A DNA stretch of 34,742 nt from Gallionellaceae bacterium (lineage in GTDB: Bacteria; Pseudomonadota; Gammaproteobacteria; Burkholderiales; Gallionellaceae): contig SCUU01000040.1 of assembly GCA_004297065.1 (NCBI GenBank), positions 1 to 34,742 of the forward strand, read 5' to 3'. Below the pieces are notes generated by a model. It was not told the DNA's origin. It saw only the letters and a list, made by a program, of their open reading frames with translations, and ran no database searches. Positions 32,240-34,742 of this stretch are shown here, piece by piece. The translations under genes were made by a program, and so were the position numbers. Every line of letters begins with the position of its first letter. Within the stretch, counting starts at the first letter, position 1.

Positions 32240-33796
32240 ATGAACAAAGAGGAAGAGCTGCGTGCCATCAGCAAACTGGTGTTCGAGTTGACCGTTACCA
32301 GTAGCAATACATCGGATCTGGATGTATTGCTTGAACGCCTGTTTGGCATATTGCGCGATTACCACAACCTGCCTCTGGAATCGCGCGGAGCCGTGCTCTT
32401 GCTCAATCCGCGCGGGCGCTATTTTCAGGTCGCCCAATTCGGCATGGCACCCCCATGGAAATCCGGCATGCGCTGGGAGTCCGGGGTGTTTTCATCGGCA
32501 GACATTGCCCCGCAGTGTCTGCTTGAAACGGTGCAGTTCGGTTCGGATGACGGCGGCGGATCCGGGCAGCAGCGCCTGTTCCTCTTGCCGCTTTGCCTTG
32601 ATGGGCAAGGCATCGGCTACACCATATTGTTTGTGCCGCTCGAATACCAAGCGTCGTCCACCCATCTCGATTTCATGAACGATTTGGCACGGGCTCTTTC
32701 CGGCCTGGTGCAGCACGCATTGACCGGCGAAACGCTGCGTATCCGCGAACTGGAACTGGAAGAAGCGCGTGCGAACGCGATTCGCAGTCTGGGCGTCGCA
32801 TCCGAATACCGCGACAACGAAACGGGTTGGCACATCATGCGCATGACCAATTTTGCCCAAGCGATTGCCAAGGCGATGGGCTTGCCGCCGGATCAGCGCG
32901 AACTGCTCTATGTCGCGGCACCCATGCACGATGTCGGGAAAATCGGCATTGCGGACGCAGTGCTGCTCAAGCCGGGCAAGCTGACCGATGCCGAATTCGA
33001 CATCATGAAAAAGCACACGGATATCGGCGTGACCATCCTGACCGGGAACGATGTGTTGATCGCGGCGGCGCGGGATATTGCCGGCTCGCACCACGAACGC
33101 TGGGACGGCACGGGTTACCCGCAAGGCCTGGCGGGCGAACAAATCCCGATCCTGGCGCGGATATGTTCCGTGGCCGATGTGTTCGATGCGCTAACCTCGA
33201 CGCGCCCGTACAAAAAAGCGTGGGCGGTGGAAGAGGCGACAAACTGGATCATTTCCGAATCTGGAAAATATTTCGACCCGGCCATCGTGGACGCCTTCAA
33301 GGCGGCCATGCCGGAAATTTTGCGCGTGCGCGAACTGTATCGCGATGACATCATCGATCCCAAGCAAGTGCTGACACTTCCCTCGCTGGAGCCGAGAGAG
33401 GACGTGTGGGCACCGTGGGATGAAAATCTCAGTGTGGGCATCGACATCATCGACGAGCATCACCGCTACCTGTTCGACCTGATTAACGACCTGTACGACG
33501 TGGTCATCCACAAACGCGGCACCCGCGATGTGGCGCGCCTGATCAAATCATTGGATGCATATGCCAAAGTGCATTTCCGCGCCGAGGAGCAGATGATGGC
33601 GCACTACGGGTTTGAAGGTGTCATGCGTCAGGAAGAACAGCACCACGCTTTCGAAGCGAAAATTCGCGAGTTCTACGAAGAACTGCACGTCAATCCATTA
33701 GTGGCACAGTTCGATGTGCTGTCTTACCTGCGCGATTGGTTGGTAAAGCACATCCAGGTTGAAGACGCCAAGCTGCGTAGCCTCGTTGGCGCTTGA
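32240..33796 (+). CDS. GAF / HD-GYP / bacteriohemerythrin protein, predicted c-di-GMP phosphodiesterase
   Basis: A 518-aa cytosolic protein with three parts. Residues of about 10-165 are GAF-like. The HD-GYP domain (about 185-370) is complete: APMHDVGKIGIAD (His230-Asp231), KKHTDIG, SHHERWDGTGYP (Gly292-Tyr293-Pro294), and ARICSVADVFDALTSTRPYK. HD-GYP enzymes hydrolyse c-di-GMP. The last 125 residues are a hemerythrin with a full diiron ligand set: DEHHRYLF, HFRAEEQMM, EQHHAF, and WLVKHIQVEDAKL. Hemerythrin-linked c-di-GMP enzymes are known to respond to oxygen or redox state, so I infer the same here. ATG 32240 follows GGAGGGG; the upstream frame is rejected. It lies 189 bases after flgL on the same strand, with no recognisable FliA promoter. 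Confidence 0.9.
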   Translation: MNKEEELRAISKLVFELTVTSSNTSDLDVLLERLFGILRDYHNLPLESRGAVLLLNPRGRYFQVAQFGMAPPWKSGMRWESGVFSSADIAPQCLLETVQFGSDDGGGSGQQRLFLLPLCLDGQGIGYTILFVPLEYQASSTHLDFMNDLARALSGLVQHALTGETLRIRELELEEARANAIRSLGVASEYRDNETGWHIMRMTNFAQAIAKAMGLPPDQRELLYVAAPMHDVGKIGIADAVLLKPGKLTDAEFDIMKKHTDIGVTILTGNDVLIAAARDIAGSHHERWDGTGYPQGLAGEQIPILARICSVADVFDALTSTRPYKKAWAVEEATNWIISESGKYFDPAIVDAFKAAMPEILRVRELYRDDIIDPKQVLTLPSLEPREDVWAPWDENLSVGIDIIDEHHRYLFDLINDLYDVVIHKRGTRDVARLIKSLDAYAKVHFRAEEQMMAHYGFEGVMRQEEQHHAFEAKIREFYEELHVNPLVAQFDVLSYLRDWLVKHIQVEDAKLRSLVGA

Positions 33797-33860: not shown

Positions 33861-34604
33861 TTAGATTTCTTTAGCATTTTCATCAAGCAGATTTTTAACT
33901 TCTTCAGGTGAGAATGCAATTCTTCTTGAATGAATTACAGCATGGCAATTTGGGCACACTGGGATAAGATCTGCAATTGGATCAACTTGATACTCTTTTC
34001 CAATATCGGCTAATGGCCGGATGTGGTGAACCTGAATAAATCCTCTCATGTCATCGCCGTAGTGCTTGCCAAAATCAAAATTACAAATACAACACGTTGA
34101 ACCGTAATGTTCGAGGCATTTTTCTCGCGCAGCAGAATCTCTCTCATACTGGTTGACCAAAACCTTCTTTACGCTACCTTCAATATATGTCTCCGATTCA
34201 GACAGTTCATCACGACCATCGCTTTCTTCCGCGAGGCGATTAACAGAAATTTCCCATAGCTTTTCTGCGATTTCATCAGAAGGCGTTGTGTAGGTTCTTG
34301 GATAACGGAGCCAAGCCCAATTGGGCAAAAGGCCACATAATTCATCAAGTGACAGAGGCGGGTCTATCGCAGGGCCAATGCCGATTTCTGCACGGTGAAC
34401 ATGACGGTTGCCAAACATTGAGGGCATGGGGGTGGCCAGAACTTCACCCGTACCAAAAATGGCATTCATATTACGAAAAAAGATAAGTACAGCATCTCCT
34501 GGCACAGCACTCCTTGGCACTACCCAAGAAATAACTCCATCTCGTTCAATTGCATAGCCAATGGCTTCAAGGTCTTGCTGATCGCCAATAAGGACATGGA
34601 GCAT
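33861..34604 (-). CDS. HNH endonuclease with PUA/EVE-like N-terminus
   Basis: A 247-aa protein. The C-terminal HNH nuclease has paired zinc cysteines (CCIC and CPNC) around the HNH motif: VHHIRPL, then VCPNCHAVIH. The N-terminal 110 residues (HVLIGDQQDLEAIGYAIERD, SWVVPRSAVPGDAVLIFF, AIFGTGEVLAT, WLRYPRTY) look like a PUA-superfamily or EVE-type fold; EVE-HNH proteins are suspected modification-dependent restriction enzymes, but this part of the call is inference. The gene is visibly AT-richer than its neighbours, stands alone against the motility block, and adjoins a transposase, so it was probably acquired. ATG 34604 follows AAGGA by six bases; an ATG at 34631 lacks a ribosome site. Confidence 0.75.
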   Translation of the reverse strand: MLHVLIGDQQDLEAIGYAIERDGVISWVVPRSAVPGDAVLIFFRNMNAIFGTGEVLATPMPSMFGNRHVHRAEIGIGPAIDPPLSLDELCGLLPNWAWLRYPRTYTTPSDEIAEKLWEISVNRLAEESDGRDELSESETYIEGSVKKVLVNQYERDSAAREKCLEHYGSTCCICNFDFGKHYGDDMRGFIQVHHIRPLADIGKEYQVDPIADLIPVCPNCHAVIHSRRIAFSPEEVKNLLDENAKEI

Positions 34605-34690
34605 GAGAGTTCCTTGAGAAATTTGGTTCATCGGACAATTGCGTGGGTAAAAGATAATCTATCGTCTCTGACTGGGTTAGGAGACGAGCG

Positions 34691-34742
34691 ATGGAAAGCA
34701 AAGAGCTGTACCGGCACTTGCTGGGGATTAATGAACCGTGGA
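34691..34742 (+). mobile_element. ISL3-like transposase, first 17 codons
   Basis: From ATG 34691, behind AGGAG, the reading is MESKELYRHLLGINEPW and then the window ends. ELYxxLLGIxxPW is the typical beginning of ISL3-family transposases. The start and ribosome site look intact; the terminal repeat of the element could not be located in the 86 bases upstream. Confidence is limited by the short length. Confidence 0.55.

Follow-up and report, generated by a model that had tools for sequence, protein, structure and literature searches.

The window, that is, the whole 34,742-nt stretch analysed (contig C180 in full, from an assembly of 343 contigs and 3.1 Mb with a contamination estimate of 5.72%), carries close to its right end an acquired and intact gene whose product is predicted to combine, in a single chain, an N-terminal EVE domain, a helical linker and a C-terminal HNH nuclease. 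By analogy with known enzymes of this architecture, the protein is probably a modification-dependent (type IV) restriction enzyme encoded by one gene, which would probably give protection from phages with modified DNA. Its reader appears to be of a divergent subtype, common to the window protein and one other locus (L004) among the best 80 of 302 relatives. The features on which the analysis is based are the following.

32240..33796, plus strand: HD-GYP/hemerythrin-like gene (named by eye), taken as the left host anchor of the island
33861..34604, minus strand: EVE-HNH gene, 247 aa, intact (ORF call, PF01844, fold models)
33864..34193, minus strand: HNH nuclease module, residues 138-247 (PF01844, EcoKMcrA match)
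34215..34604, minus strand: predicted EVE (PUA-superfamily) reader domain with linker helix, residues 1-130 (fold and profile comparison)
34605..34616, minus strand: Shine-Dalgarno region, CAAGGAACTCTC before the ATG, remaining between the IS flank and the start codon
34617..34624, no strand: 8-bp flank AGAAATTT at the IS edge, a presumed target-site duplication
34625..34742, plus strand: left end of a multi-copy ISL3-like element, with the transposase start at 34691 and 17 codons to the contig end

The frame at 33861-34631 (minus strand) was found to be open throughout. Because its first ATG (34631) falls within the IS end, because the ATG at 34604 is preceded by AAGGA 6 nt upstream, and because the resulting 247-aa protein (MLHVLIGD...) can be aligned to its closest relative, L004, from the third residue on, the ATG at 34604 was taken as the likely start of the gene. 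The sequence-only reading had let the gene run over 33861-34742, and this extent is corrected here to 33861-34604. Along the protein, the EVE domain covers residues ~1-105, the linker helix residues 110-130 and the HNH module residues ~138-247.

Nuclease and reader domains

The HNH half was matched by PF01844 (HNH) with an E-value of 1.2e-5, above the cut-off of that family, so that the intact HNH claimed earlier from the letters alone was borne out, and the PADLOC type IV REase model matched through the same part with an E of 1.2e-5. The match with EcoKMcrA had an E of 1e-4 when the single sequence was used and of 7e-7 with the profile of alignment A1 (16 full-length family members), with a Z of 7.0 over 79 residues. 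The NCBIfam matches, again through the HNH part, all fell far short of their cut-offs (IscB at E 4e-4, with 19.6 of 175 bits, and PT-DNA restriction at E 0.005). Judged by these matches, the HNH half is McrA-like. In all 49 family members compared (the window protein included), E142, G143, E154, R155, C171, C174, G183, I190, H193, H194, V216, C217, N219, C220, H221 and H225 were invariant. Following the alignment with EcoKMcrA, we take H194 to be the general base, H193, H221 and H225 to be metal ligands, and C171, C174, C217 and C220 to form a zinc site; the presumed zinc and catalytic positions thus appear to be intact.

The reader half had to be approached from fold and profile. No Pfam match to PF01878 (EVE) was obtained in the window protein or in L004; PF01878 was matched by 7 of the 16 members of A1 (E <= 1; best 1.4e-5), and in the relatives L009 and L038 its matches were below cut-off. 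A profile comparison (hhalign) was carried out between alignment A2, made of the N-termini of the window protein and L004 (two sequences, 28% identical), and alignment A3, made of the N-termini of 13 EVE-type relatives, and a probability of 94.8 with an E of 5.1e-8 was observed; in the negative control, in which A2 was compared with a non-EVE N-terminus from the same HNH family, the probability was 0.1. The first AlphaFold model, of the whole protein and with 16 mostly EVE-type input sequences, reached a pLDDT of 70.7 and a pTM of 0.40, with residues 127-151 below a pLDDT of 50 and the orientation of the domains not fixed, and VcaM4I was its top Foldseek match (E 4.4e-5). Since an input so rich in EVE sequences could impose the fold, the N-domain was modelled again from the window protein and L004 alone (A2); this two-sequence model had a pLDDT of 84.1 and a pTM of 0.77, and the EVE result was unchanged.

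For the N-domain model, EVE structures headed the Foldseek list, with 2gbs (E 1.2e-5), 2eve (7.2e-5) and THYN1 5j3e (5.0e-4), followed by a YTH domain (6.0e-4). In VIA-align, the first five rows, which we take to be EVE-type, were 2ar1 (Z 13.4), 2gbs (13.3), 1zce (13.2), 2eve (13.0) and 2g2x (12.7); lower rows held THYN1 (12.2), the EVE domain of VcaM4I (11.2 over 116 residues), the best YTH (10.7) and the best ASCH (10.5). Sequence identity to the solved EVE structures was 11-18% in the top structural matches. The N-domain, as modelled, is nearer to EVE than to other PUA-superfamily structures. ASCH and YTH domains were considered as the reader and set aside, as they occur among the matches but lie 2-3 Z units under EVE in VIA-align; SRA was likewise set aside, with no SRA structure among the 50 matches listed by Foldseek and VIA-align and with EVE rows in the lead, an exclusion that is not complete. 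The EVE/PUA-like N-terminus proposed from the sequence alone is therefore supported by predicted fold and profile comparison, with no Pfam match in the protein itself, and a fold of the N-terminus outside the PUA superfamily, which would have spoken against that proposal, did not occur.

The reader subtype and the family of its nuclease module

A scan of the genome collection gave 302 relatives in 371 pattern matches, and the best 80 of the 302 were kept. In 66 of these 80 the match starts at query residue 103 or later, and thus mainly the HNH part was matched. A match was present in 11 of the 369 genomes of the class, the window's own included; of 195 plasmid records and 7 phage records, none reached a coverage of 80% of the query. 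When the N-terminal residues alone were searched, no match was obtained in viral contigs or plasmids, the window's own genome was the sole match among the genomes searched from the order (300) and the phylum (398), and a second copy of the gene was not found in that genome. A search with A3 alone (hmmsearch) returned four matches, to tight junction protein ZO-1 (E from 0.41 upwards) and myosin, all of which we regard as chance.

The N-termini that precede the HNH module fell into 24 clusters among 89 proteins, 12 of them singletons, by single-linkage BLAST at 1e-3, a procedure that may split distant homologues or chain unrelated ones. The largest cluster (19 proteins) contains the W-x-P EVE type, and the other large ones (17, 12 and 9 proteins) differ from it. 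The window protein and L004 form a BLAST cluster of their own though profile and fold show EVE, and the distinct N-terminal folds are therefore likely fewer than 24. A Pfam scan of 49 of the 89 proteins found HNH in all 49, EVE in 2, and seven other families in all at E <= 0.01. The group of 17 proteins (L012, L014, L015, L016, L023, L027 and others) has a common N-terminus, MGKITNE..., which is possibly another reader.

It is in the pocket region that the window protein and L004 depart from the EVE-type relatives of A3. There, all 13 have W8-x-P10 and 12 have a further W at position 13; a W-x4-S-G motif follows towards the end of the domain, its W and its S each kept in 12 of the 13 and its G in all. 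In the window protein and L004, the W-x-P motif is absent; of the second motif W98 is kept, followed by RYPR[T/S]Y without S-G at the place where the 13 relatives have S-G or G-G. W27 and G36, invariant in 16 of 16 members of A1, are kept in both. Because motifs of the pocket region are changed, the base read may not be the one that typical EVE-HNH enzymes recognise. The base pocket of VcaM4I is formed by P24, W82 and Y130 plus N-terminal contacts, according to PMC7897488; a changed specificity of the reader is a reasoned guess, as these VcaM4I residues are unplaced on our model. We put forward tentatively, as a possible rather than a probable reading, that the window protein and L004 represent an EVE subtype with a rebuilt pocket, which would read a modification other than 5mC/5hmC and would be one of many readers carried by a common McrA-like HNH module.

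L004, from an Akkermansiaceae MAG (L004:5992-6711), shares 41% identity with the window protein. Its flanking genes were read as nuoM and nuoN, the former with a Proton_antipo_M match at 1.2e-55. As the GC3 of L004 is 0.56 vs 0.91 in both neighbours, it looks like a recent single-gene arrival; standing alone between these two genes, it occupies an unusual site for a nuclease gene. The surroundings of the relatives were scanned on mechanically called ORFs, with matches listed per family rather than per locus, and for the first 25 of the 113 PADLOC families and of the 144 Pfam families. Among the matches listed, single neighbours fell to the methyltransferase/Druantia-M, UzuA and PD-Lambda-2_B models, and two SoFic, two phage integrases and three HNH were found, the others being sulfatases, esterases and antiporters. 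The setting of the EVE-type relatives is thus mixed, with some defence genes, many ordinary ones and no uniform defence context.

Acquisition, the ISL3-like element and the flagellar locus

The gene is acquired. Its GC content is 0.441 vs 0.582 for positions 1-33796, a value as low being found in 0 of 662 overlapping segments of the same size, and its GC3 is 0.35 vs 0.69-0.80 in 14 other genes, so that the AT-richness remarked on in the sequence-only reading has been given figures. Its left neighbour is the gene at 32240..33796, which we take, reading its domains by eye, to be HD-GYP/hemerythrin-like, and its right neighbour is the IS. At E <= 1e-80 the HD-GYP-type gene was found in 9 of 40 genomes of the family, the window's own included, and its flanks were read in four of the eight other loci (G1030, G1036, G646 and G391, with L126-L129 left out). 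Two of the four other same-genus genomes (G1030 and G1036) have it, and in both it is followed, with gaps of 17 and 5 bp, by a gene that we named by eye as fliR; in G646 and G391, which belong to other genera, other genes follow. Foreign composition together with this direct succession in two same-genus genomes upholds the earlier view of the gene as acquired.

In the window's own genome, the same fliR (87% identity) is on contig C162. Beside it lies a minus-strand gene (C162 89-637) that ends inside the element and matches PADLOC PD-T4-10_B with an E of 1.7e-26 over model positions 138-308 of 353, and over positions 30-163 of a shorter PD-T4-10_B model (244 positions). This gene, part of locus L133, is truncated at the IS end and lies 183 bp from fliR, a gap so short that there is little room for an antitoxin partner on the fliR side. 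The GC content of C162:120-637 is 0.46 vs 0.61 for fliR. PD-T4-10B is described in PMC9519451 as the toxin of a two-gene toxin-antitoxin system guarding E. coli against T-even phages. Provided that the gene order of the relatives holds here, the stretch from the HD-GYP-type gene to fliR would contain at least two foreign defence-type genes and the ISL3-like element. Since fliR abuts the HD-GYP-type gene in the relatives, and here sits behind the opposite end of the ISL3-like element and a PD-T4-10_B remnant, the flagellar locus thus appears to be interrupted by an IS-eroded defence island. The expectation that an island with further defence genes continues beyond the window has found its answer, through synteny, in this truncated gene next to fliR.

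The end of the window and two other contig ends share their sequence as far as 34625 (...GATGAACC, minus strand) and differ from there on, and 34625 was therefore taken as the edge of a repeated element. The transposase border reported before stands, with the first 17 codons in the window. A related genome with a 92% copy extends the transposase to 24 codons; tblastn of this start against plasmids gave weak matches (E 0.1-0.9, 13 records), and 8 of 10 plasmid places among the matches listed carry an ISL3-family annotation, so that the link to ISL3 is made through a weak tblastn of 24 residues and through annotation. NCBIfam gave no match to the 24-residue transposase start. PF01610 had a single match in the genome, on the GC-rich contig C230 (L104, GC 0.65); it is an ISL3 transposase fragment of another type, and this stretch is probably contaminant DNA and not host.

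The sequence of C162:1-119 is present in six copies in the genome and ends in GTCTGATGAACC, a near-mirror of the left end GGTTCATCGGAC. For another copy, the left 8 bp on C9 and the right 8 bp on C126 were identical (both AGAATTAT), and the left and right ends were therefore assigned to one element with an 8-bp duplication; target duplications of 8 bp are typical of ISL3. The left flank in the window (AGAAATTT) had no partner among the six right ends, and the right flank on C162 (ACATTTTT) had none among the three left ends. Between C180 and C162 there is either one recombinant element, made from two copies with the intervening DNA lost, or an unassembled stretch. Read by eye, the right end of the element (L133:1-119) apparently includes the beginning of a divergent frame on the minus strand, which may be that of a passenger gene.

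Proposed function, alternatives and known systems

In the scheme that we infer by analogy with VcaM4I (PMC7897488), for DNA as the substrate as much as for base flipping, autoinhibition, cleavage and phage protection, the EVE domain would take up into its pocket a modified base flipped out of the entering phage DNA, a shift of the linker helix would free the HNH dimer that it otherwise blocks, and the McrA-like HNH domains would then cut both strands close to the modified site. The methylation of the host bears on the base that could be read. PF00145 (cytosine methyltransferase) gave nine matches on six contigs (C201, C126, C99, C196, C155, and a 94-position fragment on C3); four of these loci were checked and had a GC of 0.48-0.53, and some of the matches may be contaminant DNA. 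At C126 9956-12691, two cytosine-methyltransferase genes lie beside another copy of the ISL3-like element. These matches suggest that the host carries 5mC at some sites, and since the assembly has several such genes, indiscriminate cutting at 5mC is unlikely; with 5mC in the host, the enzyme should therefore pass over it at such sites, recognise a different base, or be silent.

An activity other than restriction of modified DNA may also be considered. If the EVE domain read modified RNA (tRNA or phage RNA), the HNH domain would cut RNA or be an abortive-infection effector; RNA readers of the PUA superfamily, YTH among them, do resemble the domain closely in fold (Z ~10.5), but the nuclease half is a McrA-like HNH, which is of the DNase type. 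The abortive-infection toxin-antitoxin system to which the neighbour on the island is related (PMC9519451) would fit such a role, but the EVE-HNH enzymes described in PMC7897488 act on DNA, and we regard a role on RNA as improbable. It is very improbable that the gene is a selfish, free-standing homing-type HNH gene which spreads by its own cutting, with the reader as a mere targeting domain: the lone L004 with its foreign GC3 between the nuoM- and nuoN-read genes would agree with this, as would the wide spread of the HNH module with different N-termini, but L004 and the window gene are inserted at unrelated genes, the latter on an island that also carries an IS and a second defence gene, and an unsystematic look revealed no conserved target.

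The remaining alternative concerns expression and is compatible with the restriction-enzyme reading of the protein. Because the IS edge lies 20 bp upstream of the ATG at 34604, the native promoter was probably displaced and altered or lost expression of the gene is plausible; the gene could then be a silent remnant, its protein intact and unexpressed. A consensus scan, which is weak evidence, found no promoter-like site in 34605-34742, its one site being inside the gene, and the truncation of the neighbouring PD-T4-10_B-like gene at the IS end and the target duplications that do not match point the same way. Against silence, neither the reading frame nor any of the conserved HNH residues is damaged, and an outward promoter could be contributed by the element itself. 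We consider silence rather unlikely, and retain the restriction enzyme as the preferred explanation of what the protein is.

Modification-dependent enzymes serve as tools for DNA-base mapping and in defence against phages with modified genomes. As an EVE reader is here joined to a McrA-like nuclease and its pocket region is changed, this fusion may report a base that known enzymes miss, and a nuclease module with many N-termini offers a direct route to further modified-base readers. If the tentative reading of the pocket is true, the 24 N-terminal clusters would amount to a set of modified-DNA sensors that is for the most part unexplored, even if some of them merge. We regard three things as new, namely the divergent reader subtype joined to a McrA-like HNH, the island as delimited here, and the picture of one HNH module that goes with many N-termini; a literature search over titles and abstract beginnings in one paper library gave no paper naming this reader subtype.

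The EVE-HNH architecture itself is already known from VcaM4I, TspA15I and CmeDI (PMC7897488) and appears as a putative type IV restriction architecture in the 2020 census by Bell, Wolf and Koonin (PMC7641849). VcaM4I (PDB 6yex), like TspA15I and CmeDI, has the same order of EVE reader, linker helix and HNH nuclease, whereas its chain is of 309 residues against 247 aa here, and PDB sequence searches gave no sequence-level match between it and the window protein. Its HNH is described in PMC7897488 as H224/N241/D250/D254 with a serine before the histidine, in contrast to the HH ... CPNCH ... H pattern with four cysteines in the window protein. EcoKMcrA (PDB 6ghc) shares the HNH pattern (C-x2-C, HH, C-P-N-C-H, H), but its N-terminal reader is the NEco domain (PMC7897488) in place of EVE. 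The wH-HNH enzymes, finally, are likewise single-chain reader-HNH fusions of 224-283 aa, with a winged helix as the reader where the window protein has a predicted EVE domain.
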